In this document: positions 206-43,900 of the stretch, piece by piece
Layout of the letters: every line of letters starts with the position of its first letter
Numbering within the stretch: position 1 is the first letter of the stretch
IMG/VR virus record: IMGVR_UViG_3300033153_003306
Location: 1 to 61,978 of that record
Length of the DNA stretch: 61,978 nt
Strand: one strand, 5' to 3'
DNA from: a virus
Translations under genes and position numbers: made by a program
Notes under the pieces: generated by a model
Databases searched by the model: none
What the model saw: the letters and a program-made list of their open reading frames with translations, nothing else
Told to the model about the DNA's origin: nothing

Positions 206-1951
206 TTAGTGCATGTGTGGGTATTGATTATTAAAAGGTGAATTTAATTCTCCATCATCTATAAAATCTCTACGGGGGTTAGACATTCTACCTCTATTAG
301 TAATTCGTCTATTATTATTTCCCTTACCACCTTTTTTACTATTTTTATCTTTTTTAACTTTCTTAAAGATACCATATGCTGTGTGTTCGTTCCAAATACC
401 TCTATCATGATGTTTCCAATCTTCAAATCCAATTTCTTGGTATGCTTGTAATACGAATTCATCAACTATATCATCATCTTCAAATTTAGTAATATTTACC
501 ATATCATTATATTCTTTGTCCGTATATCTTACAGCACATACTTTCCAGTTGTTGAAATCTTGATATTTTTTCTTACCTTTTCCAACTCTGTCTAAGAATG
601 CTTTCATTTTCTTTAATATTTTTGGTGGTATTGGTTCTTTTTTCTCATCATCATCTAAACCTTTCATTATATTACCATCATCGTAATCTGAATCGCTATT
701 TGCTAAATCTATTTCTTCCCATCCATCGGCATCATCATCATCATATTCATCATCCCAATTATTATTTGCTGCACCACTTCTAGTACCAGCACCGTGATAT
801 CCACTACCATAACCACCATATTCTTCTTCATACCAATCATCGTAGCTTGAGCTATTAGCTCTACCACCATAACCACCTTGATATACTTTATTTTCAGGTT
901 TAAGGTCAAATCTTGGTAAATCACCAGCTAAGAATGTTCTAAGGAAATCTAATACTCTTTGCCATTCTTTAATAATAAGATGTTCTGCTGCTCTATGCTC
1001 ATTATAATAACCAACACTAAAGTTAACACCACATACAGTTTCGCACAATGTACAAATATCTGTAAATGATGACCTGTTTGGTTCACTAAAGAAAGTGTTT
1101 TTATTTATGAAGTTTCTAAATTCTGATGAACCAACATAATAACATTTATAATCAGTAGCACCTTGTCTATCTAACTGTATAAAGAAATTATGATTATCTT
1201 GTATATGTTTATGTAATTCTTTATCGCCATTCACTAATGCTTTTGCACCTATTCTACCAACTTCTTCATAATTAGTAATAAGAATTGAATGACCTGTTTC
1301 TTTAGCTATTAAATAAAGCATAGCAATACCTGCTCTATCATCAGCACCCAAACCACTATGTGGATTAGATGGGAATACTTTACCTTCCTTAATATGCGGA
1401 TTTGCGTATTCATACTTTGGACCGTTACCATCCCATACTGTATCAGCATGTGCAAGTAATAGAACTCTTTTTTCAGGTGGTAAACTACCTTCTATATAAT
1501 GATAGTTTCCATCAGTAGCACCAAATTTTTCAAATACTTCTGCTGTTCTATTCAATGGAAGTTTTAAGAAATCCATTAATACTTTTAAATCACCTGTAAC
1601 TGGTTGGTCACTTGTATATTGTGGTATTTTATAATGTGTATCATTCCACCAGTCAACAATACCAGTAACTTGTTTTTCGGCTTCTGAATAATTAGTTACA
1701 TCTTCTGGTTCAGCCCTATCAGTTAAAATATTATATATTTCTGTTAATGTTACTATTTCTTTTGGTGTTGCATCTTTACTTCTTATTATTTTAATATACT
1801 CTTTAGAAAAATGAGTCCAAAATGAACTATCAGTATATTCTATATCTAATAATTCTTCTAAAACTAAGATAAACTTATCTCTTGCAACATTAATAATTTT
1901 AACTTTATTCTTGTTTTTATTTTTCTTACTTTTTCTCTCTAATAAATCCAT
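206..1951 (-). CDS. M20/M28-like zinc metallopeptidase with acidic Gly-rich C-terminal region
   Basis: This 581-residue protein has a Lys/Asn-rich N-terminus, then a co-catalytic zinc peptidase core. Metal-ligand motifs appear in family order: HAD at 168-170, SGLGADD with Asp204, the catalytic and ligand pair Glu229-Glu230 (EEVG), Asp261 (QLDRQG), and a late His (H319 or H324 in NEHRAAEH). That is the M20/M28 layout of aminopeptidases such as peptidase T. From about 350 a Gly/Tyr/Asp-rich stretch (GGYGGR, GGYGSGYHG, runs of Asp) leads to a Lys-rich tail. Such an enzyme among neck genes is unusual; it could act on virion or host peptides. The fold call is good; the substrate is unknown. Confidence 0.75.
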   Translation of the reverse strand: MDLLERKSKKNKNKNKVKIINVARDKFILVLEELLDIEYTDSSFWTHFSKEYIKIIRSKDATPKEIVTLTEIYNILTDRAEPEDVTNYSEAEKQVTGIVDWWNDTHYKIPQYTSDQPVTGDLKVLMDFLKLPLNRTAEVFEKFGATDGNYHYIEGSLPPEKRVLLLAHADTVWDGNGPKYEYANPHIKEGKVFPSNPHSGLGADDRAGIAMLYLIAKETGHSILITNYEEVGRIGAKALVNGDKELHKHIQDNHNFFIQLDRQGATDYKCYYVGSSEFRNFINKNTFFSEPNRSSFTDICTLCETVCGVNFSVGYYNEHRAAEHLIIKEWQRVLDFLRTFLAGDLPRFDLKPENKVYQGGYGGRANSSSYDDWYEEEYGGYGSGYHGAGTRSGAANNNWDDEYDDDDADGWEEIDLANSDSDYDDGNIMKGLDDDEKKEPIPPKILKKMKAFLDRVGKGKKKYQDFNNWKVCAVRYTDKEYNDMVNITKFEDDDIVDEFVLQAYQEIGFEDWKHHDRGIWNEHTAYGIFKKVKKDKNSKKGGKGNNNRRITNRGRMSNPRRDFIDDGELNSPFNNQYPHMH

Positions 1952-2838: not shown

Positions 2839-3888
2839 TTATCTCCCAAACCGACTCGATGGGCGAGTATTAGTATCTCTTGCATGGTCTTCCGTTTCAT
2901 CAAGAACATCACCATCTTCAAGAGCTTCTTCAATAATTTCATTTGTAACATCAAGTACAAGTTCATTAAGGTCTTCAAGGTCGGCAAGTTCAGGAATTTG
3001 GTCAGTAATATTATCACTAACATCAACATTACTATTATAATCATATAATGATACATTAAACACATAACTAAGGTTTCTATTAAACATTAAATGTGGTGGT
3101 GTATCGTTAACATATTCTATTTGATATAGTTGTTCTAACTTAGGTATCCATAATAAATCAGTTATCTTAGGTCTGATATCTACTATCTTTGTAATTGTAA
3201 TTGTAAAATCAGTAGGTACTAATTCTTCATCTATTATATCAACCCCATCGTTTGGTGTTAATGTAATTTCAGTTCTCCAAACAAATATTTGTTCTTCACC
3301 TACCCATGTTTCTATTTCGTTATAAGCAATAGCACTAACGATATAATCTGCATTATTAGTAGCTTCACCACAACCTGCTAATGTAACAGTATCACCAGTA
3401 TTTATATCTGTGTATAAATCTTCGGCTGTAAGGTCTTGATTATAGAAGTAAACAGTGTCATCTTGAATAAATGTACTGTGTTCCATAGTTTCAGCAATTT
3501 CAAATGTTCTTTCATGTTCAATATAAACAGTGTCGTGGTCTACCATATTTTGGAAATATGACATTGGTGCATAATATGTAAGTTCACCTTCGTTAATAAA
3601 TGAAAAACCATTACTAACAAAATTATGTGATATATTATCATCTACAACATCAGGATTCCACAGTAAAACTTCAAAAGCTCTATCAAGAACCTTTGTTCTA
3701 CTTTCACCAAAGAATTCATCTGTGTTGAAGTGGTCTACTGTAATATAATATGCTTTATCCCCATATAACCTAAGTATATCACGATATATAACATCCATCA
3801 AAAGAAAATCTTTTGAGTAGTTATCGGTATTCATGTCGTTGTTATAACGCCACGCATTTCCAGGTGTTGGGAAAGGACTATCTGCCAT
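2839..3888 (-). CDS. 14: Neck protein, T4 gp14-like
   Basis: 349 residues. The N-terminal third (a helix with IYRDILRLYGDKAYYI, then DEFFGES) and the later segment YQIEYVNDTPPHLM followed by YVFNVSLYDYNSN match the arrangement of gp14 neck proteins of T4-like phages: conserved 'IYG...YYIPR', 'FGED' and 'Y-x-I-x-Y-V-x-x-x-x-P' followed by 'F-x-Y-S-N'. T4 gp14 is about 256 residues, so this one is longer, with an acidic C-terminus (EIIEEALEDGDVLDETEDH). gp14 with gp13 closes the DNA-filled head before the tail joins. Its N-terminus overlaps the upstream zinc-finger gene by 11 nt. The match was made by eye. Confidence 0.65.
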   Translation of the reverse strand: MADSPFPTPGNAWRYNNDMNTDNYSKDFLLMDVIYRDILRLYGDKAYYITVDHFNTDEFFGESRTKVLDRAFEVLLWNPDVVDDNISHNFVSNGFSFINEGELTYYAPMSYFQNMVDHDTVYIEHERTFEIAETMEHSTFIQDDTVYFYNQDLTAEDLYTDINTGDTVTLAGCGEATNNADYIVSAIAYNEIETWVGEEQIFVWRTEITLTPNDGVDIIDEELVPTDFTITITKIVDIRPKITDLLWIPKLEQLYQIEYVNDTPPHLMFNRNLSYVFNVSLYDYNSNVDVSDNITDQIPELADLEDLNELVLDVTNEIIEEALEDGDVLDETEDHARDTNTRPSSRFGR

Positions 3889-4450
3889 TATTTGCCTTTT
3901 TAATTTCTGCTTCTAAGTCATAAACATCTTTTATTTCGCCACTCATAACTTTATCCGATAATAAGTTTAAAAATTTATATATATCTTTTGTTAATGATTT
4001 ATCTAATTTTTTTTGAGCTTCTATCATTAAAGTGCCTATTATTTTGATTAGTTCGGATTTATTGTATATTTTTTTTCTTTTGCGTTTAAAATAGATGTTC
4101 ATTATTTGTCCAATAACATATGACGCAATAGCAATATTCATCATCGCATCTTCGTTCAATATATTTTCATATAATCTTAATACATTAGTCTTCATTACAT
4201 TCCCTACAGTATTTATTATTCCGTTATTCATCGGCATTACATCTGCACCAAACTCACCATCTTTAATTCTACCTTCATTTCTTTTATTATAACAATCTTT
4301 ACACATTACACGCATTTGTTGTCGTTTGACACAAAATTCACATAATCCTTTACCACAATCATCACAATTAGTAGTAGCCGTATCACCACATGTTGCACAA
4401 CCTTTGCCTTCTTTCAATAGTTCTTCATATAATCTATATAAATTATTCAT
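3878..4450 (-). CDS. Putative packaged zinc-finger protein with two capsid-targeting-like leaders
   Basis: 190 residues. The N-terminus MNNLYRLYEELLKEG fits the leader shared by many genes here, with a possible prohead-protease cut after LKE. A B-box-like zinc domain follows: CATC, CDDC, CEFC, CKDC between about residues 18 and 55. A second leader-like segment, MKTNVLRLYENILNED, lies at residues 86-101; its Met codon (4195) follows AGGGAATGTA, so an internal start is possible. The rest is helical and basic. Its start overlaps the stop of the upstream gene in an ATGAATAA arrangement. I read it as two internal-head-protein modules in one ORF; the function is unknown. Confidence 0.6.
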   Translation of the reverse strand: MNNLYRLYEELLKEGKGCATCGDTATTNCDDCGKGLCEFCVKRQQMRVMCKDCYNKRNEGRIKDGEFGADVMPMNNGIINTVGNVMKTNVLRLYENILNEDAMMNIAIASYVIGQIMNIYFKRKRKKIYNKSELIKIIGTLMIEAQKKLDKSLTKDIYKFLNLLSDKVMSGEIKDVYDLEAEIKKANNGR

Positions 4451-4694
4451 TATGTGCTCTCCACATTTTCATCAATTTTATTTTAGTCTTTAATGGTACA
4501 CCACTAAGACAGCTACAACCACCATTAGTTCTTTGCCCTGTTTTATTTTTAGCAAAATAACAACCATGATTACCGCAGTCACGTCCTGAAAGTTCTTTGA
4601 TGATTTCTTCTTTCTTATCGTTTTTTAATAAATTTTCAAAATCGACATTACTTTCGTTTAATACTTCTTCATATAGTTCTTGTAAGTTTGTCAT
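4443..4694 (-). CDS. Small Cys-rich protein with capsid-targeting-like leader
   Basis: 83 residues. MTNLQELYEEVLNES matches the shared leader, with a putative cut after LNE. The body has a compact Cys/Gly cluster, DCGNHGCYFAKN then GGCSCLSG, with four cysteines that could bind one metal ion, and a basic helical end. The start overlaps the 3' end of the CCA-adding enzyme C-half gene by 26 nt. No enzymatic motif was recognised. Its leader and its place in the block suggest a packaged internal protein; that is an inference. Confidence 0.55.
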   Translation of the reverse strand: MTNLQELYEEVLNESNVDFENLLKNDKKEEIIKELSGRDCGNHGCYFAKNKTGQRTNGGCSCLSGVPLKTKIKLMKMWRAHNE

Positions 4695-5883
4695 ATTGTT
4701 CCTTTAAGCTTTCTTCTATAGTAGAGTTAACTTCTCGTATCTTATCATCTATAGCTTTTATATTATTTATATTTATATTGTTGTCTAAAACCCAATCTAA
4801 CACATTTTTTCTTATTATTCCTAATCTTTTTCCTGGTCCAATACCAAGTACATCCATTATATGCTTACCATTAACAACTGTTTTAATAACATCTAATGCG
4901 TTTTTATCTTTAAATCTATCTTTCATTTTATCTACAAAGTCTGTTACACGTTTCCATCTTACAGGGTTAAATGCGTGTAGTCTTGATTTAGTATCTGCTT
5001 CTGAAACTTTATACAGAACATCCCAATAAGGACTATCCATAATATTCATAACCTTAGAACCTTTCATTTTCCATAAATCATGAACTTTCATATGATGTTC
5101 TGACACATACTTCAAACAGTTCTTAGTATTGTTGTCAAGTTTTAATCTTTTAGCTATTTTATTAATTCTTTCCATACCTGCTGCTTCATGACCGTGATAG
5201 TGCCAACCTGTTTCATCACTTGATTGTGTATCAAGTTTACCTACATCATGGAATAATATTCCTAAATTAACCATAGGGTCTGAACTATCAGCAACTCTTA
5301 ATGCTTGTAAGCTATGTTTAAACACATTCCCTTCTGGGTGATGTTTTTCAGTTTGTGGTAAGTCATCTAATTCAACTATTTCGGGTAATATATGTTGTAA
5401 TAATCCTGTTTCTTTTAATATAATAATAGCATTAGCAAACTGTTTACCATTACCTGCCATTTTCATTAGTTCTTTAACAATTCGTTCAACTGCTTGACCT
5501 TTTATATTAGATGAGTTAGACTTAATAGCATCCATTGTCTCTGGGTCTATTTTAAAGCCCATTCTCGAAGCAAATCGCACAGCCCTTAACATTCTTAGGT
5601 AATCCTCTTGGAATCGCTTATTTGGGTCTCCTACGGTTCTTAAAACCTTATTCTTTATATCACCATGACCATCAAAATGGTCTATAACATTACCATCCTT
5701 ATCAACAGCCATAGCATTTATAGTAAAATCTCTTCTTTGAGCATCTTGTTTGTAATCCATAACAATTTTTACACTTGATGGATATCTTCCACTGTGTACT
5801 GTTTCCCATTCAACAACTTCATATTTAGATGGGTCTAAATGGTCAGGATTATTAGAATTATATTTTTCTATTTTATTTGTCAT
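4669..5883 (-). CDS. CCA-adding enzyme / poly(A) polymerase, C-terminal half (split gene)
   Basis: 404 residues corresponding to everything after the first part of a class II tRNA nucleotidyltransferase head. It begins ahead of SGRYPSSVKIV and contains QRRDFTINAMAVD (residues 49-61), GDPNKRFQEDYLRMLRAVRF (neck and head motifs), then an HD phosphohydrolase domain (HSLQAL, FHDVGK, HHPEGN, EHH). The nucleotidyltransferase motifs GGxxRD and DxD are missing here and lie in the gene at 6777-7172. A GIY-YIG endonuclease gene separates the halves, and its stop overlaps this ATG (AATGACAAATAA). The two halves probably work as two polypeptides. Whether it adds CCA or A-tails cannot be told from sequence. 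Confidence 0.85.
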   Translation of the reverse strand: MTNKIEKYNSNNPDHLDPSKYEVVEWETVHSGRYPSSVKIVMDYKQDAQRRDFTINAMAVDKDGNVIDHFDGHGDIKNKVLRTVGDPNKRFQEDYLRMLRAVRFASRMGFKIDPETMDAIKSNSSNIKGQAVERIVKELMKMAGNGKQFANAIIILKETGLLQHILPEIVELDDLPQTEKHHPEGNVFKHSLQALRVADSSDPMVNLGILFHDVGKLDTQSSDETGWHYHGHEAAGMERINKIAKRLKLDNNTKNCLKYVSEHHMKVHDLWKMKGSKVMNIMDSPYWDVLYKVSEADTKSRLHAFNPVRWKRVTDFVDKMKDRFKDKNALDVIKTVVNGKHIMDVLGIGPGKRLGIIRKNVLDWVLDNNININNIKAIDDKIREVNSTIEESLKEQYDKLTRTI

Positions 5884-6712
5884 TTCTATTTTTTCTTATA
5901 AATTTATAACCTTTTAGTTTTCCACTGTTTATTGTTCTATTATATTTACCCGATGCTTCTATTGTAGATATGGATACCTTATTTTTTTTAGCCCAATCTT
6001 TTATAAAAATTATGTTATCATCTATTATTATGTTATCTTTTATAATAGTATATGTATATTTAATTAATTTATTTCTCATATTATAAACTGCTTCTTTTGT
6101 ATGTTTTTTACCGTACATGCCATTATTAGAACCTTTCATTGAACCATTTTCTATTATATGTTTTTTTCTCTTTTCATTAATTTCTTTTGAAGTCATTAAT
6201 TTTACAAAATTATTTTTATATGTTGGATTATCACATCTTTTTTTAGCAGACTTACTCATTTTTTCTTTTGTTATTTTGTTTCGTTTTTGACCTATTCGTT
6301 TATCTGTGTATTTTTTAACTCTTTTATCATCAATAGTTAAATCTTTATTCCAAGGTATCTTACCTTTTTGGGAATCACTAATTTTTTTATAAATTTTATC
6401 TTTTTCAGGATGAAATTCTAATATATATCCACCTCTACCACCAATTACCATATTATAAGTTTCTTTATCAGTTATAAAATTTTCATTTACAATCCATTGT
6501 TCAACATCATAGGCTGTTTGTTTATCTATAAAATCAAAAATAATTTCTTTTTTAAAGTTTTCTATTCCATACTTTTTCTGTGCTCTTTTAAGATGTTTAC
6601 CACTACCCATATAATCATCATTTAAATTATCTGTAGAATGAACCCCGATATAAATTTTATTATTCTTAAGATTTATTATACTATATATAGTATTATGTTT
6701 ATGTTCTTTCAT
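5873..6712 (-). CDS. GIY-YIG homing endonuclease inserted in the CCA-adding enzyme gene
   Basis: 279 residues. The GIY-YIG domain is at the N-terminus: [19 protein letters not shown], then DYMGSGKHLKRAQKKYG, an Arg/Lys-rich helix, and a Glu-containing segment. A NUMOD3-like DNA-binding segment (NNGMYGKKHTKEAVYNMRNK) lies near residue 200, followed by a helix-turn-helix-like end (KNKVSISTIEASGKYNRTI). It has its own late-type promoter (6740-6747), and its stop overlaps the start of the downstream enzyme half. Only about 64 nt upstream and none downstream remain for an intron core, so this looks like a freestanding gene rather than an intron ORF. Confidence 0.85.
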   Translation of the reverse strand: MKEHKHNTIYSIINLKNNKIYIGVHSTDNLNDDYMGSGKHLKRAQKKYGIENFKKEIIFDFIDKQTAYDVEQWIVNENFITDKETYNMVIGGRGGYILEFHPEKDKIYKKISDSQKGKIPWNKDLTIDDKRVKKYTDKRIGQKRNKITKEKMSKSAKKRCDNPTYKNNFVKLMTSKEINEKRKKHIIENGSMKGSNNGMYGKKHTKEAVYNMRNKLIKYTYTIIKDNIIIDDNIIFIKDWAKKNKVSISTIEASGKYNRTINSGKLKGYKFIRKNRNDK

Positions 6713-6739
6713 TTTAATCCTTTTATTATTTTATATCTT

Positions 6740-6747
6740 TATTTATA
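6740..6747 (-). promoter_or_regulatory. T4-type late promoter
   Basis: The minus strand reads TATAAATA, 28 nt before the ATG of the GIY-YIG gene at 6712. It matches the T4 late -10 consensus used with the gp55 sigma factor. It would drive the endonuclease and the downstream CCA-enzyme C-half. Confidence 0.6.
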
Positions 6748-6776
6748 AAATAATTTCGACAAGATGGTAAATATTT

Positions 6777-7172
6777 TTAAACTTTTCTTACATATTTTGG
6801 TGTTTTATAATTATCGTGACGAAAATTTGCAATTTCGTAAGTAAAACCACCTTCATTAATAACCATAATCCCGAAGTCTTTATTTTTTCCTATATTGAAA
6901 GTTTTAAAGTATTTTTCTAAAATATCAACATCTACATTTGTGGCTATATCTATATCATCAGGTTCTTTATCGCCTGTTATTATGTCTCTTATAGCCCCAC
7001 CGACTATGAAAGCCCTTGGATTTTTTATATTATGTTTTTTACCAATTTCTTCAATTTCTTTTAATAAATCAACACCAACCTTTAACATAGGAATTCTATC
7101 AATGTAACCTTGCCAATCATTAATAGTTGTTTCTAATAAGTTTATATATTTTTCTGTTATTAGTTTATTCAT
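6777..7172 (-). CDS. CCA-adding enzyme / poly(A) polymerase, N-terminal half with capsid-targeting-like leader
   Basis: 131 residues. I place the start at 7172 because this ATG overlaps the upstream stop (AATGAATAA) and begins MNKLITEKYINLLE, the leader shared with neighbouring internal-protein genes. The body is the class II nucleotidyltransferase catalytic core: FIVGGAIRD (55-63) and DDIDIATN (72-79, catalytic Asp73 and Asp75), then TYEIANFRHD. The ORF stops soon after (TPKYVRKV), before the RRDFTINAMA motif found in the downstream half at 4669-5883. It is split by the GIY-YIG gene. The leader implies this half may be packaged in the head, which is unprecedented as far as I know. Confidence 0.8.
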   Translation of the reverse strand: MNKLITEKYINLLETTINDWQGYIDRIPMLKVGVDLLKEIEEIGKKHNIKNPRAFIVGGAIRDIITGDKEPDDIDIATNVDVDILEKYFKTFNIGKNKDFGIMVINEGGFTYEIANFRHDNYKTPKYVRKV

Positions 7173-7620
7173 TCCAATTACCTGCATTATTCATCCTAAG
7201 TTGTGCATCATGTTTATAGTTGTTAAACACTATACGAAAATTATGAAGATTATATTCACCACCTTCAACCGCACTACCAAGTATACTACTACTTCGATTA
7301 AAAGCTTCACCATTAAAAGGTCTTGTAAGGAAATCAACGACTATATTTTGTCTATCAGGAAAAACACGACTATCTACAACACTTAACATAGTTTCAATAT
7401 AATAATTAACACCAGTCCTACTCCATAACAACCCATTATCGGTTAATTCATCACGTACTGTCCACCCTTCCATATTAAAAGTGTGTATTATTTTAGATAG
7501 TTTTGAAAGTGCATCTGAATCATTTTCAGGTGTGATTTTTTCTTCATCATCTAACTTACCCGAATCAATATCTTCCCAACCTTCAAGTAAATCTACATAT
7601 TTAGTCATTAGTTTATTCAT
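7165..7620 (-). CDS. Putative internal head protein, one WEDIDS-type domain
   Basis: 151 residues: the leader MNKLMTKYVDLLE, then at once GWEDIDSGKLDDEE, then a single domain of about 120 residues with the family features GW-x-V (EGWTVRD) and a LLWS motif. A prohead-protease-type site (L-x-E or LLE before Gly-Trp) would remove the leader and leave a mature domain starting at GW. The ATG overlaps the stop of the upstream paralogue. The first ~85 bp are identical to the start of the next gene upstream. I recognise no enzymatic motif; the packaging role is inferred from leader and context. Confidence 0.6.
   Translation of the reverse strand: MNKLMTKYVDLLEGWEDIDSGKLDDEEKITPENDSDALSKLSKIIHTFNMEGWTVRDELTDNGLLWSRTGVNYYIETMLSVVDSRVFPDRQNIVVDFLTRPFNGEAFNRSSSILGSAVEGGEYNLHNFRIVFNNYKHDAQLRMNNAGNWNE
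7537..7620. repeat. 84-bp perfect direct repeat, copy 1
   Basis: This stretch is identical to 8364-8447. It encodes the leader and the GWEDIDSGKLDDEE linker at the start of two adjacent paralogous genes. It indicates a recent duplication or gene conversion; recombination between copies would delete one gene. Confidence 0.9.
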
Positions 7621-8447
7621 TGTCTACTCATTTCTCTTGTTGTGTATTTAAAATATTCTTTAAACCATCTAACAAAACCTTCAACATTTTCTCCCAATGT
7701 TCTGTCAAGTCTTCCAAATATAAGTCTTAAATCATTAATAGCGTCGCCATCATGTGGTATTGTGGTGTAATGTGATTCCATAGTAATATTATTATGTTGG
7801 TCAATATACATACTAACTTTAATATCATAATCATGGTAATCAGAAGACCATAATAACTCTTGGTCTGTTAACCTATCACTAACATACCAACCATCAATGG
7901 TTATATCGTATATAGCATCAATTAAATCAACGAATAATACTTCTGAGGATACATTTTCTTCATCATCTAACTTATCTGAATCAATATCTTCCCAACCTTC
8001 ATCTAACTTATTATAATATTCTAATGCCATTGATTCCCATAGTTTATACTTACATTTATGATATTCGTCTAAGGTATTATCAATATTATTATTCCAAGGA
8101 CTTTCTTTCGCTATAACAAACATATCAGTATTATCCAGTAACCAACAAGTGTGTGTTCCTGTTGTATAGTTAAAATACTGATGATTAATAATATCACCTT
8201 TATCATTATTAAGTTTTATATGTAACAGATGCCCACCACCATTATCCCGATAAGTTGCTGTTATATGGTGATGTCTACCTTTAATAGTAAAATCACCATA
8301 ATCATCGAATAAAGTACAAATTTCTTCTATCTTATTTTTTAGTTGGTCACCACCGCTAAATTCTTTTTCTTCATCATCTAACTTACCCGAATCAATATCT
8401 TCCCAACCTTCAAGTAAATCTACATATTTAGTCATTAGTTTATTCAT
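7617..8447 (-). CDS. Putative internal head polyprotein, two WEDIDS-type domains
   Basis: 276 residues. A longer frame exists upstream, but the ATG at 8447 overlaps the preceding stop and begins with the conserved leader MNKLMTKYVDLLE, so I start there. Unit 1 follows GWEDIDSGKLDDEE and contains HITATY, NHQYFNYTTGTHTCWL. Unit 2 begins after KLDE (Glu150) with GWEDIDSDKLDDEE and contains GWYVSD and LLWSSDY. Unit 1 is a clear paralogue of unit 1 in the next gene (NHQFFNYTIGQHSCWL). Cutting after each x-x-E would release two ~135-residue proteins. Function unknown. Confidence 0.65.
   Translation of the reverse strand: MNKLMTKYVDLLEGWEDIDSGKLDDEEKEFSGGDQLKNKIEEICTLFDDYGDFTIKGRHHHITATYRDNGGGHLLHIKLNNDKGDIINHQYFNYTTGTHTCWLLDNTDMFVIAKESPWNNNIDNTLDEYHKCKYKLWESMALEYYNKLDEGWEDIDSDKLDDEENVSSEVLFVDLIDAIYDITIDGWYVSDRLTDQELLWSSDYHDYDIKVSMYIDQHNNITMESHYTTIPHDGDAINDLRLIFGRLDRTLGENVEGFVRWFKEYFKYTTREMSRQ
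8364..8447. repeat. 84-bp perfect direct repeat, copy 2
   Basis: Second copy of the repeat at 7537-7620, offset by 827 nt. It covers the 5' end of the gene at 7617-8447. Confidence 0.9.
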
Positions 8448-9276
8448 TATTATTTGCCAAATATCTATGTAATTGTCTATCAAAAATTTGTAATGCTTCC
8501 AACGTGTTTGAATGTGAATTATTAGCAATTTGATAATATATAACATGTCTGTGTTTTGAATCGTCATATCGTGATACTAATGTGTTACCATTTAGTCTAA
8601 AGTTTATTTTTAATGTTGCCCCATCACCACTTTTGATAAATCTTATAAAATCAATACCAATAGAAAATCCCCTCCAACCATGAATAAATACATCCCTATA
8701 AATAGCTGATACATCTTGCATAAATTCATCAAGAGTAAAACTATCGTTAACTTCTCCACTATCTTCGTTTTCTTCATCATCTAAGGCATCACTATCGATA
8801 TCATCCCAACCTTCTTTTAATTTCGTAACATCTTTCTTTTTATTATAATAGTTCTGTACCATCATATTCCATATATGATACCTACAATTTTGATATTCTG
8901 TAGTTACATCATCAAAAGTTTTATTCCAATCATTAGTTACGGCATTCACCCACAACGCATGTGCATCCTTGCGTAACCAACAACTATGTTGTCCTATTGT
9001 ATAATTAAAAAATTGGTGATTAATCAATTCACCATCATTAAATAGTTTTATGTGCATATTATCAAAACCACCTTGATTCACGTATTCTGCTGATAAAGTA
9101 AGGTGATTACCTCTAATATTAAAATCGTCACCATCTTTTTCGAATAACTCACAAAGTTTTATAATATTAGATTCTATGGTATTAACTCCAACTTGTTCTT
9201 CCTTATCTAATGAATCACTATCAATATCTTCCCAACCTTCAAGTAAATCTATATATTTTGTAAATAGTTTATTCAT
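8440..9276 (-). CDS. Putative internal head polyprotein, two WEDIDS-type domains
   Basis: 278 residues with leader MNKLFTKYIDLLE, then GWEDIDSDSLDKEE and a first domain sharing NHQ-F-F-N-Y-T and C-W-L blocks with the downstream paralogue. A second linker follows KLKE (Glu155): GWDDIDSDALDDEE, then a domain with IHGWRGF. The start overlaps the stop of the upstream gene (TAATG). The predicted cut sites are (L/I)-x-E before Gly-Trp. It belongs to the five-gene expansion described under findings. No known domain was recognised. Confidence 0.65.
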   Translation of the reverse strand: MNKLFTKYIDLLEGWEDIDSDSLDKEEQVGVNTIESNIIKLCELFEKDGDDFNIRGNHLTLSAEYVNQGGFDNMHIKLFNDGELINHQFFNYTIGQHSCWLRKDAHALWVNAVTNDWNKTFDDVTTEYQNCRYHIWNMMVQNYYNKKKDVTKLKEGWDDIDSDALDDEENEDSGEVNDSFTLDEFMQDVSAIYRDVFIHGWRGFSIGIDFIRFIKSGDGATLKINFRLNGNTLVSRYDDSKHRHVIYYQIANNSHSNTLEALQIFDRQLHRYLANNNE

Positions 9277-10331
9277 TAGAATCCTGGTCCACCTGCCGCA
9301 CCACCATCAGCACCTAAAGTAACACTACTATCACTTGGTGGGTTAACTAAACCTTTTACATCACTTGTACCACTTGGTACTATAACAGATTGTTTTCTTA
9401 CCTTATTCTTTTGGTCTTTTTCTAATGCTTTCTGTTTCTTAGTTTCTGTGTTATAATGATTAGCAACCATATTATCTAATCTTGATTCTTTTATATATTT
9501 TAAATTATGTTCTTGTACCCAATGTTCAACACCTTTATATAATATTTTTACTGTTGGAAAGTTGAGTTTATCATTTCTACCAATAACGTCGACAATCGCA
9601 CCTTTTGGTACTATTGTTTCTACATCAGCATCAGCAAATTTACCTATATCGTAATAATCTCTTTTTTCTACAGGCTCTTTTAATACCGCTTTCTTAGAAC
9701 TACTTTCTTCTAATACATCACTACAGTAAGGGCAACTAAAATCTTCTGTTAATCCAAAGTGATAACTTACACCACCACAATTAGGACACATTAATTGATT
9801 ATCATCATCACAATCTTCATCCATAAATGGTTCAATACTTTCTTTATTAATAGTAACAAAGTTGTTCATAAAGGTATCATTATCAATTACAAAGTCATGC
9901 TTCTTATTAGTTCTTTTCTTAATAGCAGAAGAAACATAAGAATTATACTCATCTTTGTTAAGTAAATAGAAATACTCACCTCTGTAAATAGTACTTGGTT
10001 TGTTGTTAGTATCAAATGCATCAACATCAACCTTACTTGCAAACAAGTTACTACTTTCACTAATACTATCAGCGTCAGGTCTATCAGCATTTATAATATC
10101 ACCAATAATCTTTGAATATTCTTTAGGATTACTAATACCAATCTTATTAGTTGCATTAACAGGTAATGAGTCAGCATTCGTATCAGTATTATCCATCCAA
10201 TCTTTTAATTTTAATAAACCTTCAACTCCATCAGTTTTTCTGATATCGTTAAGGTGTTCTTTCATTTTATCTGAAAGGTGTGTTAGTTTTTGTTCTAACA
10301 TACTTTTAATTTCTTCTTTTGTATATATCAT
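9276..10331 (-). CDS. Hypothetical late protein with a zinc ribbon
   Basis: 351 residues, unrecognised. It starts with a helical segment (MIYTKEEIKSMLEQKLTHL) without the packaging leader. A zinc ribbon (CPNCGG...CPYC, residues ~180-205) sits in the middle. An SH3-like stretch follows (PKGAIVDVIGRNDKLNFPTV, then KGVEHWVQEHNL), and the end is Gly/Ala-rich (GGAAGGPGF). A late promoter word lies 30 nt upstream (10361-10368). Lying inside the internal-protein block suggests a virion or head-assembly role; that is only context. Confidence 0.55.
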   Translation of the reverse strand: MIYTKEEIKSMLEQKLTHLSDKMKEHLNDIRKTDGVEGLLKLKDWMDNTDTNADSLPVNATNKIGISNPKEYSKIIGDIINADRPDADSISESSNLFASKVDVDAFDTNNKPSTIYRGEYFYLLNKDEYNSYVSSAIKKRTNKKHDFVIDNDTFMNNFVTINKESIEPFMDEDCDDDNQLMCPNCGGVSYHFGLTEDFSCPYCSDVLEESSSKKAVLKEPVEKRDYYDIGKFADADVETIVPKGAIVDVIGRNDKLNFPTVKILYKGVEHWVQEHNLKYIKESRLDNMVANHYNTETKKQKALEKDQKNKVRKQSVIVPSGTSDVKGLVNPPSDSSVTLGADGGAAGGPGF

Positions 10332-10360
10332 ATTAATCCTCTTATTATCTTGTATATTAT

Positions 10361-10368
10361 TATTTATA
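10361..10368 (-). promoter_or_regulatory. T4-type late promoter
   Basis: TATAAATA on the minus strand, 30 nt before the ATG at 10331, in a 42-nt intergenic gap. It would drive the zinc-ribbon gene and the two- and one-domain internal-protein genes below it. Confidence 0.6.
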
Positions 10369-10373
10369 ATTAA

Positions 10374-13064
10374 TTATTCAGCAATTCTGGACAATACCCG
10401 ATTATTTAACACATTTAGACACAATTCACTAATTCTTTCGTATTCTGTATTTACATTAAAACTACCAGTAAATAGTGCTGATAGTTCTTTACCAAGTTCA
10501 TTAAATGTTGTTAGTAAAAAATCGAACACGGTATCATCATCTACCCCACGACTACCACCAGAATTATCAGTATCCCATAAATTTATAGTTATAGTATTTT
10601 TATCATTTGATAGGGTTATATTATTATCATTAATAGTAATATTCCAATTGTCTGCATGTTGTTGTCTGATATCATTTAGTACACGGTTCGTTATATCTGT
10701 TGTAAACTCCCTAATTGTTATACCATTTTCTACACGCTTTACATTTTCTTCATCATCTAACATACCTGAATCAATATCTTCCCAACCTTCTTGTAGTCCT
10801 ATATCAGTATATTCTTCAACAATTCTACGTACATCGTTATCTAACATTCTTATCAAACTATCACCAATAACATGATAATTATTACCGAAATCAAGATTAT
10901 CACCAACATAACTATCATATTCGTCATCGCTATCAATATAAACTTGTGCTAAAAAGTTAAAATTTCCATCAACAAAAGCCAATTCGTCAAGGGGTGATAA
11001 ACTCAATGGTCGTATTTTTACAACAACTTCATGGTTTGATAACTCTATATAATGCAAATTATTTACTTCTAAAAAGTTTCTATTCCAATCCTTAAAAAAT
11101 TCAGAACGTTCTAAATAATGACGAATCATTCTACTAGTGATTTGGTTTAGCATTTGTTTATTTGTGGTATGTGTTAGTGTTCTTCTTGGTTGTCCTTTTG
11201 GTATAATTTGTTCTTCATCATCTAATGCGTCACTATCAATATCTTCCCACGCTTCGCTAAGTTCAAACAATTTTCTCATCACTTTTAAATAAAATCTACG
11301 ATATATACCAAATATACTATCTAATGGTGAGTCAGAAGACCAATGTTCATTACCATTAACAAACGTAACTCTATTATTAATTTTTATTCTTCCAAAAAAT
11401 TGGTAAACCCCTTCTGATGCTAAACTATCATCGTGTAAATTTAAATCATCTGTTACCCAAGGTTCGATAATTATTTTATCTTTACCATTAATAAATGTAA
11501 CAATATGTGGGTTCGCACTTTGAAGTCTTTCTTCTCTTGTTAAATGTTTCCAACCACTAGGAATTTTTGTTAGTATATTAAGTGGTTCACCTAAACCATC
11601 AACATAATTCTCTAATGTTTGTTGTCCTGGTGTTGTAATATTTTCTTCATCATCTAACTTAGCTGAATCAATATCTTCCCAACCTTCACTTATTTGTTTT
11701 TTAGCATTATTTAGTACTCTGGTTAATAACTGGCTAAATATTTTGTGATTTTCACCAACTGCACCACCAGTATTACATCTTTTACTAAACAATCCATTAC
11801 CATAATGCACATCATCTTTTAATAAAGCTGAATAGAAATGATAATCCATAACCCCTGTATATTCAGCACTTAAAGGATTAACAGTTTGATTAATAGGTAA
11901 TGCGGAGAAGAATATTTCCCATCCATCCTTACGTAAATATAAAAATCTTCTACTGCTTGTATTATAAGTGGGGGTATTCCAATTATATTCTACTTCCCAA
12001 CCATTCATACTTGGCGCATCTATCCAACTTCTATTAATAGCACCATTGATGTTACGCATTATTAGACCTAACATATCGTCATTAGTGAATACTTTTTCAG
12101 GTTTTTTGTTTGATTTATCTTCTTCATCATCTAACTTAGCTGAATCAATATCATCCCAACCTTCATATACACTCCCTGTAATATGTGTTTTATTAAACAT
12201 TTTCCCTAAGTGATGTACACCCATATCACTTTCCATTTTTTCTATAAACTCGTCAACAGTGCGACAAGACATATATGCCCCGAAAAAAGTAGCGCTATTG
12301 TCTTCATGTTTTTTATAAACCTTTGGTACTACACGATTTGCACTACTACCTTCATCTATAAATATTTGTATGTGTATTTTATATTTAGGGTGGCTCCACA
12401 CCATTTTGTTATCACCGATGTAATTAACAACCCATCCATCAATAGCCCATTTACCACTAACAGATTTAATATGCTTTATTATGTTTTCACGCGTAATGTT
12501 TGGAAGTGTTTTACTTTCTTCATCATCTAACTTAGCTGAATCAATATCTTCCCACGCTTCATTTAATGGTATTTTATAACCATTATCAATAAAATTGAGG
12601 TATCTTCTAGTAACATTAGTCATAACTACTCTCATTAGGGATAAATATAGCTCTGATTGTGCCCTGGTATTATCATATTTTTGAAATGGTATTACTCGTT
12701 CACCATATATAGAGTCAACATATGCTTTATCATCTTCTACCCCCATTGTAGTTTTTGCTTTTATTAACATTTTTTCTTCACTACCATAAAAAGGTATTGT
12801 TTCAAATATTAAATTTTTATCCCAATCCCACCAAGTAATATATAATTTTTTGGACGTATCTAAATTGGTAATTTGAAAATCTATGTTTTTAAATAGGGGG
12901 TCTTTTTTTCTATCTATAGCGACAGTGGTTGCAAACTTCTTTGCATAGTCGTATAATAGGTTGGGGTTCTGTTCTTCATCATCCAATGCAACTGAATCAA
13001 TATGATGAACATGCTCTTCTTCTAATATATATTCTTGATATATTTCATCTATTTGTTTTGTCAA
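10374..13064 (-). CDS. Large putative internal head polyprotein, six WEDIDS-type units
   Basis: 896 residues. The start is a TTG at 13064, preceded by AAGGAGG at 8 nt; no ATG fits. The leader MTKQIDEIYQEYILEE is followed by HHIDSVALDDEEQ, a variant linker. Five more linkers follow predicted cuts at Glu169 (AWEDIDSAKLDDEE), Glu301 (GWDDIDSAKLDDEE), Glu460 (GWEDIDSAKLDDEE), Glu604 (AWEDIDSDALDDEE) and Glu759 (GWEDIDSGMLDDEE). Units are about 130-160 residues and diverged, but several keep GW-x-V and W-S blocks. The residue before each Glu fits (L/I/V/Y)-x-E. I infer proteolytic maturation in the prohead into six polypeptides. Confidence 0.7.
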   Translation of the reverse strand: MTKQIDEIYQEYILEEEHVHHIDSVALDDEEQNPNLLYDYAKKFATTVAIDRKKDPLFKNIDFQITNLDTSKKLYITWWDWDKNLIFETIPFYGSEEKMLIKAKTTMGVEDDKAYVDSIYGERVIPFQKYDNTRAQSELYLSLMRVVMTNVTRRYLNFIDNGYKIPLNEAWEDIDSAKLDDEESKTLPNITRENIIKHIKSVSGKWAIDGWVVNYIGDNKMVWSHPKYKIHIQIFIDEGSSANRVVPKVYKKHEDNSATFFGAYMSCRTVDEFIEKMESDMGVHHLGKMFNKTHITGSVYEGWDDIDSAKLDDEEDKSNKKPEKVFTNDDMLGLIMRNINGAINRSWIDAPSMNGWEVEYNWNTPTYNTSSRRFLYLRKDGWEIFFSALPINQTVNPLSAEYTGVMDYHFYSALLKDDVHYGNGLFSKRCNTGGAVGENHKIFSQLLTRVLNNAKKQISEGWEDIDSAKLDDEENITTPGQQTLENYVDGLGEPLNILTKIPSGWKHLTREERLQSANPHIVTFINGKDKIIIEPWVTDDLNLHDDSLASEGVYQFFGRIKINNRVTFVNGNEHWSSDSPLDSIFGIYRRFYLKVMRKLFELSEAWEDIDSDALDDEEQIIPKGQPRRTLTHTTNKQMLNQITSRMIRHYLERSEFFKDWNRNFLEVNNLHYIELSNHEVVVKIRPLSLSPLDELAFVDGNFNFLAQVYIDSDDEYDSYVGDNLDFGNNYHVIGDSLIRMLDNDVRRIVEEYTDIGLQEGWEDIDSGMLDDEENVKRVENGITIREFTTDITNRVLNDIRQQHADNWNITINDNNITLSNDKNTITINLWDTDNSGGSRGVDDDTVFDFLLTTFNELGKELSALFTGSFNVNTEYERISELCLNVLNNRVLSRIAE

Positions 13065-13077
13065 TCGACAATCCTCC

Positions 13078-14025
13078 TTAATCTAGTGAATCATCGTCTT
13101 CTAATATTGGAGTAAGTCCTTCTTGCACACAACTAATAAAATAATTCACATCTAAATCTTTTGGTTTTTTTGGGTCGAAATCTGGTTCGTATGGTATGAT
13201 TCTTTCTTCTAATATTTGTTTTCTATCTCTACGAGTTTTCACAACTCTTATATTTAAAGCACCTTCATAGAATATTGTAATTTTATATTTCCAATTACTA
13301 ACTCTTGAACCTCTTCTGCCTTCTTCATCACTAATTCTCCAAAGTGCTAAACTTGGATACATATTACTTCCATATCCTGAACGAATTTGCTTATATGTAA
13401 ATCTTTGTTTTACACCCTTAACAACATAGTAAGCATTACGACTCATTACTTTATTAGAGATTGTTGCTCTCATTTGTTCTTTATCTGCGAATGTATATAG
13501 TTTATGTCCTAATTCTTTGCTTTCTTCTTTATCTATATCACTATGGTCTAATTTATCCCAACTTCTTTCTTCGTTGATAGTAGGGTTATTAAGTGGGTCA
13601 AATTCTTTTAGTTTCTGACGAATACTACCCAATGATAGTTCATGTATTATTGTTCCTATTAGTCGTTCATAGTCTGCATCAGCATCCCACGTTGCATCAA
13701 ATGGTATAGTGTATTCGTCTAAAAGGTCACCACCACGTGCAATAGCACATACAATACCATGTGCTCCTTCCCAAAAAGGTGTAGTATATATTAATATCTC
13801 TGATTTAGGGTTTGACCATTCCCAAGCACCCGCAAAACTTAATTCTAAACTCCATCCATTAATTTCGTGATTTCTTAGTCTATCGTTTAGTTCCCAACCA
13901 TATCTGTATAATTCTTTTGGTCCATCTGTTTCTACATTTTCTTCATCATCTAATGCACTACCATCGATATCATCCCAAGCTTCATTAACTATATCATTAT
14001 ATTCATCTGTTATAAAAAATTTCAT
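13078..14025 (-). CDS. Putative internal head polyprotein, two WEDIDS-type units
   Basis: 315 residues. The leader MKFFITDEYNDIVNE is followed by AWDDIDGSALDDEE, and unit 1 contains INGWSLEL and WEWSNPKSEILIY. A second, diverged linker near residue 154 (INEERSWDKLDHSDIDKEES) opens unit 2, which is more basic (VVKTRRDRKQ) and ends in a very acidic tail (EDDDSLD). The gene lies between the six-unit polyprotein and another leader-bearing gene, with 12-13 nt spacings. It is of the same family as its neighbours; the function is unknown. Confidence 0.65.
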   Translation of the reverse strand: MKFFITDEYNDIVNEAWDDIDGSALDDEENVETDGPKELYRYGWELNDRLRNHEINGWSLELSFAGAWEWSNPKSEILIYTTPFWEGAHGIVCAIARGGDLLDEYTIPFDATWDADADYERLIGTIIHELSLGSIRQKLKEFDPLNNPTINEERSWDKLDHSDIDKEESKELGHKLYTFADKEQMRATISNKVMSRNAYYVVKGVKQRFTYKQIRSGYGSNMYPSLALWRISDEEGRRGSRVSNWKYKITIFYEGALNIRVVKTRRDRKQILEERIIPYEPDFDPKKPKDLDVNYFISCVQEGLTPILEDDDSLD

Positions 14026-14037
14026 TTTATATTCATC

Positions 14038-14562
14038 CTATGTTTTAGGTGTAAATTTATCATACTTCGACCTTAGTTGTTCGAGCTTACGTGTTATATC
14101 TTTAATATAATCGTCTATAGCTTCATCTTCTGTTACGTGCATAGCGAAATTAGACATGTTAAAATCACCAAGTTCTGTGTGTATCACATTACCATCAATA
14201 GTACAATCGTATTTAAACTTCCAATCTAATATCTTCTCGTATTTGTCACCAGGTTGTGGGTATATTAATTCTGTATTCATTTTAATAATTGCCACATGGT
14301 TTGTGTGTCTAATAGGTACATTAACATATAATGTTCTTTTTGAATTAGTAATTATGCCTTGCATCTCAGGCATGTAATGTATCTCACACCATGTAGGCAC
14401 TTTATTATTTTCGTGTATTCGTGTGTGTATTGCATGTACTATATTTTCTAATTGTACTTCACAAGATGGACTGTTAAAACTATCTTCTTCTTCGACACTC
14501 CAATCAACAACCCCATCGGCTTCTGATAATAATTGTTTATAAATATCATTTATTTTGCTCAT
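14038..14562 (-). CDS. Putative internal head protein with leader and acidic linker variant
   Basis: 174 residues. MSKINDIYKQLLSEA fits the leader with a cut after LSE. The next residues, DGVVDWSVEEEDSF, look like a diverged W-(acidic) linker. The body shows no known motif; it has a beta-rich look with TLYVNVPIRHTNHVAI and ends basic (RSKYDKFTPKT). It heads the internal-protein run directly downstream of the 14572-15246 gene. Packaging is inferred from the leader. Confidence 0.5.
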   Translation of the reverse strand: MSKINDIYKQLLSEADGVVDWSVEEEDSFNSPSCEVQLENIVHAIHTRIHENNKVPTWCEIHYMPEMQGIITNSKRTLYVNVPIRHTNHVAIIKMNTELIYPQPGDKYEKILDWKFKYDCTIDGNVIHTELGDFNMSNFAMHVTEDEAIDDYIKDITRKLEQLRSKYDKFTPKT

Positions 14563-24154: not shown

Positions 24155-24445
24155 TTACATGTCTTCCCAAACACCATCATAACCATCGACATCAAGTATT
24201 TTAACTTTGAAATCTTCCTCGTTCATTCCTAAGTTTTCAGCAATATCAATTTTTATATCTGTTATCGCTTGTCTAACTTGTTGGTAATTTTCATCATTTA
24301 TTCTGTCTTCATCATCACCAACTGGTGTTTTTTGTCTATATGCTACTGCTAATTTGTAAATTGTTATTTCATCTTTAATTTCGTGAAATTCATTCAATTT
24401 TTCTTCTTTTAATGTTTCTTCGTACAACGTTTCTAATTTTTCCAT
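24155..24445 (-). CDS. Small protein with capsid-targeting-like leader
   Basis: 96 residues. MEKLETLYEETLKEEKLNE fits the leader with a cut after LKE. The mature part is acidic and helical (DEDRINDENYQQVRQAI, NLGMNEEDFKVKILDVDG). The leader occurs here far from the main internal-protein block, inside the tail genes. No motif was recognised. Confidence 0.5.
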   Translation of the reverse strand: MEKLETLYEETLKEEKLNEFHEIKDEITIYKLAVAYRQKTPVGDDEDRINDENYQQVRQAITDIKIDIAENLGMNEEDFKVKILDVDGYDGVWEDM

Positions 24446-40720: not shown

Positions 40721-40912
40721 TTATTCTTCTAATAGTTTTTTAAGGTCATACAATAGCATATTATATACTGACATTCTCCCTAATTTTATACCTTCGTTTA
40801 GTACATCATCCATATCCTCATAATCTACTTCAAGTATTTTTAAGGAATCCCAACCCTTTTCTTTACAATTGGTATATTTTTCAATTATATTGTTTAGTTT
40901 TTCTTTATCCAC
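40721..40912 (-). CDS. Small hypothetical protein
   Basis: I place the start at a GTG (40912) overlapping the ribonucleotide reductase stop (TGTGGATAA), giving 63 residues: VDKEKLNNIIEKYTNCKEKG (first residue decoded as Met), then ILEVDYEDMDDVLNEGIKLG and a helical end. An earlier in-frame start would read through the reductase C-terminus. It is translationally coupled to the reductase. Unrecognised. Confidence 0.45.
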   Translation of the reverse strand: MDKEKLNNIIEKYTNCKEKGWDSLKILEVDYEDMDDVLNEGIKLGRMSVYNMLLYDLKKLLEE

Positions 40913-43900
40913 ACTTAGTCCAACCACAATGTTTACACACTGCACAACCACCTTCGAATATTAACATCGAATCACAATCATCAGCACCACATTTTTCTCC
41001 TGTAAGTGTGTCGTTAGGTAAATAAGCACCAAGTATTTTCTTTATCTGAAATATAAAAGAATATACAGGTGGTTCAATTTTGTCAATAGTTTTAATTATA
41101 TCAACAATAGGAACTCTGTGTCGTAACAACATTCCCAAAACTCTTGCAATTTTCACAACATTTGTTTGATTGTGTGCGTTATTCATAAGTTTTTCTAAAT
41201 GTCCATTCTTAATATGTTTTTTGGCTAATATTTGTAAATGCCCTAGTACGTCTTCTGTTAAAATGTTTGTTTCTGTACTATTCGTAGTTACTAATAAACC
41301 ATTAGGAAGATTTGTTTCCACATCAATAGGTATTGTAACGAGCCATTTTCTACCTTCACTTTTAATTATTTTAAGTTTTGCATCACTTTCTGTTGGAAAT
41401 TTATAGTTTTCGAGTATTTGCCATTTCTTCTTATCTTTTTCACTTGCATTTAAAACACCTTCTCTGCAACCATCTCTATATATAGTAACGCCTTTTAGTT
41501 TAAAATGATGCGCATACTTATATATTTCACTTATTGTTTCCATACTTGTTTCTTTCGGTAAGTTGATAGTAGAACTAATAGATGCTGAGATGTGCATTTG
41601 TATAATTGATTGTAGATGTATTCTATCTTTCCAATCAACCTCAGCAGAAGTTATAAAGTTTTCATTCTTTAAGTGTGCATCTTCGCCATAAATATTATTA
41701 TATTCTTCTACAAGTGGATGATAAACAGTATATGTTTCTTTCTTTCCATCTTTACCCGCTTGATGAACTGTTCTATCATAACCCATCATAAAAATAGGTT
41801 CAATTCCAGAACTCGTTCTTGCTATAATAGAAATAGAACCTGATGGGGCACATGTCGTAAACCCAATATTTCGTGTACCATACTTTTCTAAATCAGGTGA
41901 TAAATTAGGGAAATCTTTTTTAAATAAATTAAAATACTTATGATTTAACCAATTATCCCAATAATTAGAAACTGTATCTTCATCATCTTTAGGCATATAC
42001 TTTTGAAGAATACCACAAGCTCCTCGTTCTTTAGCCAATTCAATAGATTCAAAGATTGTGTTCGTATATAAACAATATCCAATCTTTGATAATTGTTCTA
42101 ATGATTTATGACTACCATACTTCATATTCATTCTGATAAACATATCAGCAAGTCCTGTAAACCCTAAACCAATTTTATTACTTAGTTCTGTGGCTTTACG
42201 ATTTATTTCTAATGGTTCTCTATCGGTATTTAATATATTGATATTGTCTAAAAATCTTGATGCAACTCTAACAGTACTATTAAATTTTTCATAATCAAAT
42301 TCTGCTTTATCTGTAAATGAGTTCTTAACAAATTTATTAAGGTCTAAACTACCAAGACAACAACTCGCACCATTTTCTAATGGTAACTCACCACAATTAT
42401 GAACCAATACACCTGATGAATTTAAATATTTATCATCATCCCATTTGGTAAGTATATAAAAATTATGATTATCCTCAACAGTTAAATCATATACATCTAC
42501 ACATTCAGAGTCAAAAGAATCAGTTATACTTTCAACATATACGGAATCATCTAAATACACATTGTTAGAATTTTTTTCTTTGTATAATTCTAAAAGTCTA
42601 TCCCCATTTTCATCATCCCATTCTTCTAATTTTTTATTTATTTTTTCTTCTGACCAATTATATCTCGCACCATTACCTAATATATTTGACCTTGAAGAAT
42701 ATAATGATAAATATTCTGTTCCTTTTAATTTTTGTATAGGATTATTTATACCACATCTTTTTGTTTTACTTTTATGTTCTTCTACAGTAATCAATTCTAA
42801 ATTATCGATATAATCAGTTGTAGAATTTCCATCTATGTGGTCGATGTTATGTGTAGTTCCATCATACTTAGAATTATAATGTTCATACATCATTCTATAT
42901 TGTTTATTATATCCACATGTTTTACTGTTAATAGTTCTGTAAGACTTTTCTGTATTTTTATCCGAGAAACTATAAAACTTTGATATTTCTTGGTTATATG
43001 ACTTTCCAGCTTCTATGTATGTTTTTCCATCTGGTAGTGCTAATAAATGGTCTGGTGTGCATTTAAAACTACTTCCGTCACTTAAATTTACCATTATTAT
43101 TTTTTTCTTTCCCGATTTAAAAGCTTTTGCTTTTTTTATTTCGACTTTCCATTGATTACGAGAACCATTTTTACGAGCAGAATACACAGGAAATTCTTCG
43201 TTTTTTTCTGTTAATTCTTTAATTGTTACACCATTTCTACCATCAGCAACAGCAACAATAGTATCACCGACAAAACAAGGATTTGTGCTAATAGCTCTTG
43301 TTTCTGGGAATACCCCAGCAGGTTCATCATTCACAATATTATCCCAAAACATAATTCCTGGTTCAGCACCACGCCAATTGGATTCAACAAATAAATCCCA
43401 AATTATTGTTGCTTTTTCAGTTCTTTTGAATTCTGTACCATCTTTTAATGTATACGACATTTCCCAATCAGCATCTTCGTTAACAGCTTTCATAAATTCA
43501 TCTGAAATTCTTATTGAAATATTTGCAAATTGTACTTTACTTTTGTCTGAACCACCTTTAACCCTTATAAATTCTATAACATCAGGGTGTGATATGTCCA
43601 TAGTAAGCATTAAAGCCCCTCTCCTGCCATATTGACCAATAATACCCGTTACCATAGAATATAAATCCATGAAGGATACAGCACCGCTTGTGGTCTTCGC
43701 AGAGTTGTTTACGGGTGCACCCGCAGGTCTTAGAGTAGATAAGTCAAATCCTACACCACCACCTTTACTAAATAATATTGCTTGTCTTTTGGCAGTTTCA
43801 AATATACTACCTATATCATCATTATCAATTTGAACAACATAACAATTTTTTAATGTTGCCGTTACATCGTTAGGGTTTCCGAGAGCATAAAGTATTCTAC

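Follow-up and report, generated by a model that had tools for sequence, protein, structure and literature searches.

Candidate modular internal polyproteins in a fragment of a T4-superfamily myovirus

Head-packaged and processed proteins of described phages

In phage T4, the internal proteins IPI, IPII and IPIII, together with Alt, are diverse proteins with a common N-terminal leader of 10-19 residues that has the layout Y-x-x-h-[IL]-x-E, and they follow the (L/I)xE cut rule of the T4 gp21 prohead protease. The leader of IPII and IPIII, which we examined as controls, is MKTYQEFIAE/A. The first 10 residues of the T4 CTS, MKTYQEFIAE, are enough for targeting. The chain is cut behind a short motif, on the C-terminal side of Glu; processing relies on residues 8 and 10, and Asp instead of the P1 Glu blocks it (PMC9026906). 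T-even internal proteins are a diverse set of defence proteins with only the CTS in common (PMC3012670). The five genes described here, named WEDIDS genes from a repeated motif, resemble those of T4 in leader layout and cut rule, in a late-gene setting near baseplate genes (as for T4 alt) and in their poor conservation between relatives. However, the T4 internal proteins have one mature basic domain per gene, whereas the WEDIDS genes have up to six units, many of them acidic, and a repeated WEDIDSxxLDDEE segment after the cut. A single basic domain is not a strict criterion for T4-type CTS internal proteins, Alt being larger.

Several LxE or IxE sites on one precursor are also found in T4 gp22 and gp67, and a cut at LIE/GEEPEDEDED of gp67 (also examined as a control) would leave an acidic segment, as at the WEDIDS junctions. 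Unlike the WEDIDS proteins, in which whole domains, predicted to be folded, lie between the sites, gp22 and gp67 have a scaffold role and end up as small peptides. Their genes are located by those of gp21 and gp23, whereas the WEDIDS genes are located by tail and neck genes and have no family match. The ejection (inner body) proteins of SPN3US and phiKZ are likewise paralogous internal proteins cut after x-E, and the cut of SPN3US gp53 at AQE/GWKET also leaves an N-terminal GW. Their rule, however, is AxE/SxE, and they have long propeptides and a single mature product per gene. Polyvalent proteins and P1 DarA, DarB and DdrB are head-packaged multidomain proteins, some of them processed, with the idea that many functions are delivered together; such packaged multidomain proteins are already known (PMC5512222). 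In contrast to polyvalent proteins, in which enzymatic domains can be recognised and a peptidase is often embedded, the WEDIDS units showed no recognisable effector domain, no embedded peptidase and no MuF/portal link.

CTS tagging (T4, P1 DarB), core proteins cut at several sites and packaged multidomain proteins are all known. A tandem array of domains under a single CTS, joined by a copied protease junction, was not found in the literature or collections searched, and that literature yielded no description of head polyproteins in phages with prohead-protease sites in tandem. The initial annotation of this DNA had regarded a polyprotein form with a conserved post-cleavage motif as apparently new; within that literature this holds for the tandem junction form, whereas multi-site cutting has precedents in T4 gp22 and gp67.

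The WEDIDS genes, their leaders and their units

The window, i.e. the whole stretch of 61,978 bases of virus record IMGVR_UViG_3300033153_003306, has 30% G+C and is probably a fragment. It carries myovirus genes (baseplate, neck, UvsX, DnaB, NAD ligase, RNR and polymerase), and no tRNA or Rfam match was found in it. Five genes on the minus strand, A (13078-14025), B (10374-13064), C (8440-9276), D (7617-8447) and E (7165-7620), stand with the late tail and neck genes. Between 7165 and 14025 they contain 13 copies of the motif, all of which had been noticed in the initial annotation and are confirmed here. The five genes had been described as adjacent; their number is correct, but they are not strictly adjacent because a motif-less gene (9276-10331, minus strand) separates B from C. 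This motif-less gene has an insertion of about 130 residues, with zinc-ribbon-like cysteines, relative to its homologue (L008:7792-8370). Gene D was listed as an ORF at 7617-8567, of which the likeliest start is at 8447. Gene B has a TTG start preceded by a strong Shine-Dalgarno sequence, AAGGAGG.

Each of the five genes begins with a CTS-like leader of 13-15 residues with the layout Y-x-x-h-[ILV]-x-E. These leaders are MKFFITDEYNDIVNE in gene A (13981-14025), MTKQIDEIYQEYILE in gene B (13020-13064), MNKLFTKYIDLLE in gene C (9238-9276), and MNKLMTKYVDLLE in both gene D (8409-8447) and gene E (7582-7620). The leader segments YEELLKE, YKQLLSE and YQEYILE are comparable to YQEFIAE of the T4 leader. 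The leader was also present on at least five further genes in the window that are unrelated to the five. Leader-bearing genes unrelated to the units, all on the minus strand, encode a cysteine-rich protein (3878-4450; MNNLYRLYEELLKE/G, with a second site, LYENILNE/D, deeper inside), a small protein (4443-4694; MTNLQELYEEVLNE/S), the 5' part of a CCA/polyA nucleotidyltransferase (6777-7172; same leader, MNKLITEKYINLLE) and a second small protein, adjacent to the WEDIDS genes (14038-14562; MSKINDIYKQLLSE/ADGVVDWSVEEED), which is without WEDIDS and may be a divergent single unit. Two more minus-strand genes have CTS-like leaders (24155-24445, MEKLETLYEETLKE; 53494-54030, MKGVLFKLYESILEE) and, like gene B, match a looser form of the pattern. 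In the window, 10 of 80 genes matched the strict pattern, with 0.36 expected (P = 4e-12), and in the relative described below 7 of 87 did so (P = 2e-7); the looser pattern gave P = 7e-5 and 0.0025, respectively. These P values are optimistic because the pattern was devised after seeing the leaders and because three of the ten strict window matches are the closely related copies on C, D and E. The earlier proposal of a prohead-type tag agrees with a leader that is CTS-like and common to unrelated genes, as in T4 IPII and IPIII.

The five proteins comprise 13 units of 123-162 residues (14.3-19.3 kDa), one to six per gene, in good accordance with the domains of about 130-160 residues and the single six-unit gene previously noted. 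According to the junction map, gene A encodes A1 (13567-13980), opening with AWDDIDGSALDDEE, and A2 (13078-13566, stop codon included), with the degenerate junction INEE/RSWDKLDHSDIDKEE. The six-unit gene is gene B, encoding B1 (12558-13019), with the junction ILE/ and a degenerate motif lacking Trp, EEHVHHIDSVALDDEE, followed by B2 (12162-12557; LNE/AWEDIDS), B3 (11685-12161; VYE/GWDDIDS), B4 (11253-11684; ISE/GWEDIDS), B5 (10788-11252; LSE/AWEDIDS) and B6 (10374-10787, stop codon included; LQE/GWEDIDS). Gene C encodes C1 (8812-9237; LLE/GWEDIDS) and C2 (8440-8811, stop codon included; LKE/GWDDIDS), gene D encodes D1 (7998-8408; LLE/GWEDIDS) and D2 (7617-7997; LDE/GWEDIDS), and gene E has the single unit E1 (7165-7581, stop codon included; LLE/GWEDIDS). 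Unit pI values range from 4.2 to 8.8, with many acidic units (pI 4.2-6.2).

C1 and D1 are 48% identical, and D2, E1 and B2 are related to one another. For the remaining cores, sequence comparison showed no clear relationship, and in a profile comparison of the two unit families the alignment was restricted to 17 motif columns. No known family was found for the units in Pfam, PHROGs, NCBIfam or PADLOC, fold searches gave no match below E = 1e-3, and neither blastn/tblastn against 50,697 phages nor protein patterns revealed meaningful relatives. Because most cores have no clear relationship and nothing in the databases matches them, we treat the constant part as the junction and the variable part as the domain, a division resembling that of the T-even internal proteins with their common CTS. 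The exact junction pattern found nothing meaningful in viral and genome contigs; a relaxed pattern found 25 viral contigs, all with unrelated acidic stretches and without a second copy or an LxE-GW junction. AlphaFold models predicted an alpha-beta5-alpha arrangement for D2 (mean pLDDT 72, motif about 50) and an alpha-beta6-alpha arrangement for C1 (mean pLDDT 61, motif about 35-42); the models are suggestive since they were built on 5 and 2 sequences, respectively. The post-junction segment, of low confidence (disordered) in both, may be a flexible tail.

Junction sequence and codon identity

The consensus of the 13 junctions is [LIV]-x-E / (G/A)-W-(E/D)-D-I-D-S-x-x-L-D-D-E-E. Eleven copies match the strict pattern W[ED]DID[SG]xxLD[DK]EE, which never occurred in 200 mononucleotide and 100 dinucleotide shuffles; the other two are the degenerate copies of A2 and B1. 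All 13 junctions have L, I or V at P3 and E at P1, with P2 free (LLE, LKE, LNE, VYE, ISE, LSE, LQE, LDE, VNE, INE and ILE), so that the (L/I)-x-E rule first noticed before each Trp holds throughout as [LIV]xE. For the eight internal junctions alone, the chance probability is about 4e-6 for L/I/V at P3 and about 1.5e-9 for E at P1. The sequence [LIV]xE[GA] occurs at 11 junctions and at just two other places in the 1916 residues of the five proteins. Non-junction [LIV]xE sites are not depleted in the cores (29 against 20.9 expected). Therefore, selective cutting would need flexibility or a P1' preference. Other leader-bearing genes are without WEDIDS; if their leaders are also cut, the motif cannot be a general requirement for leader cleavage. 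A WEDIDS-like sequence, GWEEIDL...GLDDDEKK, is present in an M28/M42-like peptidase (206-1951, minus strand) beside a neck gene and has no [LI]xE upstream.

The 14-residue junction segment is near-invariant even by codon, whereas most unit cores show no recognisable sequence similarity to one another. Identical residues of the motif have identical codons in 0.90 of pairs against 0.68 expected (p about 3e-4, which is the resolution of the test), and in 0.96 among the copies within gene B. For alignable core pairs the same-codon rate is 0.42-0.73 against 0.53-0.62 expected, i.e. near the codon-usage expectation. The junction copies therefore seem to be younger than the domains, or more strongly homogenised, like a recombination cassette, and protein-level constraint alone is weakened as an explanation of motif invariance. 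The repeat extends no further than P1 on one side and the last Glu on the other. Codons at P3 vary (TTA, CTT, CTA, GTA, GTT and ATA) and all encode L, I or V; P2 codons also vary between junctions. That P3 and P1 are kept outside the identical-codon stretch and in the degenerate copies still argues for function, and cassette copying and junction function are compatible. The acidic WEDIDS-LDDEE segment had been suggested to act in docking; given that its near-identity is partly at the DNA level, cassette copying contributes to it and docking is not the sole cause. We tentatively propose, at somewhat less than even odds, that the copied cassette of about 42 bp combines a protease site with a constant N-terminal tail, so that any domain recombined behind it would be packaged, released and injected; true polyproteins would then load the head, and multi-effector cargo could be assembled under one leader in plug-in fashion.

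A syntenic relative and the explanations weighed

A 75-kb relative, IMGVR_UViG_3300001580_000017, shares gene order with the window for the neck, OB, tail and hub genes, with 59% identity in the neck alignment. The WEDIDS island is missing from this otherwise syntenic contig, as expected because internal proteins evolve fast and share only the CTS (PMC3012670). Neck, hub, OB and MCP markers led to no further relative; each search gave either this contig again or no match. The capsid protein of the relative is a gp23 of the T4 type (E = 8.8e-74), in which GKSLKE/S aligns with the T4 gp23 maturation site GSFLTE/A (L-x-E). Its nearest gp23 among named phages, those of Campylobacter phages, is only about 28-29% identical, and the relative therefore belongs to a deep branch of the T4 superfamily. 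No model of the gp21-type (S77) protease matched on the window or on the relative, both of which are fragments that end before gp21. The capsid protein with its aligned L-x-E site supports the presence of a gp21-type protease at the level of the clade. The peptidase at 206-1951 was rejected as a candidate prohead protease, being M28/M42-like and not S77. In the relative, gp23 is preceded by a protein of 434 residues, in the place of gp22, and before that by a 523-residue protein; the contig ends about 3.3 kb upstream of gp23.

Leader-like starts were also seen in the relative. The 523-residue protein two genes upstream of gp23 (L018:6201-7772) begins with MLKIIETTLWDVYTDNLKE/S (YTDNLKE/S). A protein with the leader MSNKLIEAYSDIVLE/S (L010:9847-10347) has a match to the Hdf-like antirestriction family phrog_1620 that is too weak for reliance (E = 0.016). 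Two similar leader-bearing proteins (L009:9709-11031 and L008:8807-10000) start with MNLLEQFKLLFE/KKD and MKLQEQYKLLFE/KKD, and the former matches phrog_17056, of unknown function.

We read the five genes as probably encoding CTS-tagged, modular internal (ejection) proteins, organised as polyproteins cut in the prohead, in a myovirus of the T4 superfamily. The CTS-type leader of 13-15 residues would carry the chain into the prohead core, where the prohead protease would cut after (L/I/V)-x-E; this would detach the leader and release one to six domains of 14-19 kDa. The freed domains, alpha/beta in the two modelled, would each start with the flexible acidic tail (G/A)WEDIDSxxLDDEE, remain in the mature head and leave with the DNA; their most likely site of action is the host cell. 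Cutting the 104-kDa chain of gene B to domains of 15-18 kDa may ease passage through the tail. We infer a protease in this genome, cleavage, packaging and ejection from sequence, and from the examples of T4 IPI and Alt we would guess that the units serve anti-defence or takeover in the host. A polyprotein strategy had been proposed at the outset and is partly supported; the leader, the [LIV]xE junctions, the modular units and the L-x-E site of gp23 in the relative favour it, as do the late-gene setting, the absence of the island from the relative and the low-confidence motif tail of both models. We count against it the lack of gp21 on either fragment, the 29 non-junction [LIV]xE sites, the many acidic units and the lack of a family or fold match. 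If the polyprotein reading is true, this would be a polyprotein route as in RNA viruses, with several proteins delivered under one packaging tag, so that few genes could deliver many proteins into the host. The fixed junction would also be a sequence handle for finding new injected effectors, and the locus a natural case of multi-cargo phage-head loading.

Alternatively, the leader alone may be removed from a CTS-tagged chain and the junctions may be uncut flexible linkers, the ejected product then being a whole multidomain protein comparable to polyvalent proteins or N4 vRNAP. The N4 virion RNAP is packaged unprocessed and two of the present junctions are degenerate. Large packaged multidomain proteins exist (PMC5512222), and in SPN3US the ejection proteins have N-terminal propeptides trimmed off (PMC10052503). 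However, the internal junctions obey the P3/P1 rule of the leader cut exactly, with P2 free, and the near-invariant segment is preceded by one kind of cut sequence whether it stands behind a leader or inside the chain; we consider uncut linkers rather unlikely. It is quite improbable that WEDIDS is a linear motif through which each domain of non-virion tandem-repeat proteins docks to a partner from the host or the phage, with the preceding E coincidental or ancestral. [LIV]xE stands directly upstream of all 13 copies, including both degenerate ones, and a CTS-type leader is present on all five genes, although the motif is near-invariant over diverged cores, the M28-like peptidase has its similar sequence with no [LI]xE ahead, and the leaders of other genes occur without WEDIDS. 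The repeated junction could also mainly reflect recent DNA copying by recombination at a repeat of about 40 bp, in which case its conservation would say little on function. The same-codon rates of the motif agree with this, as do cores that are mostly too diverged to compare and, in comparable pairs, have synonymous sites near the codon-usage expectation. Such copying as the main cause is very improbable, since the repeat stops at P1 and the last Glu, P3 codons differ yet always give L/I/V, and the degenerate B1 and A2 still have [LIV]xE.

The window is rich in homing-endonuclease-like genes. The CCA/polyA nucleotidyltransferase gene (4669-7172, minus strand) is split into 6777-7172 and 4669-5883 by a GIY-YIG/NUMOD3 homing endonuclease (5873-6712), and Rfam detected no group I intron. 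Further genes of this kind lie at 1954-2835, 44172-45185 and 47434-48348, the last assigned solely by N-terminal similarity to the others. The large-subunit ribonucleotide reductase (40905-44132, minus strand; 1075 aa) has HNH endonuclease matches at residues 378-459 approximately, suggesting a possible intein.
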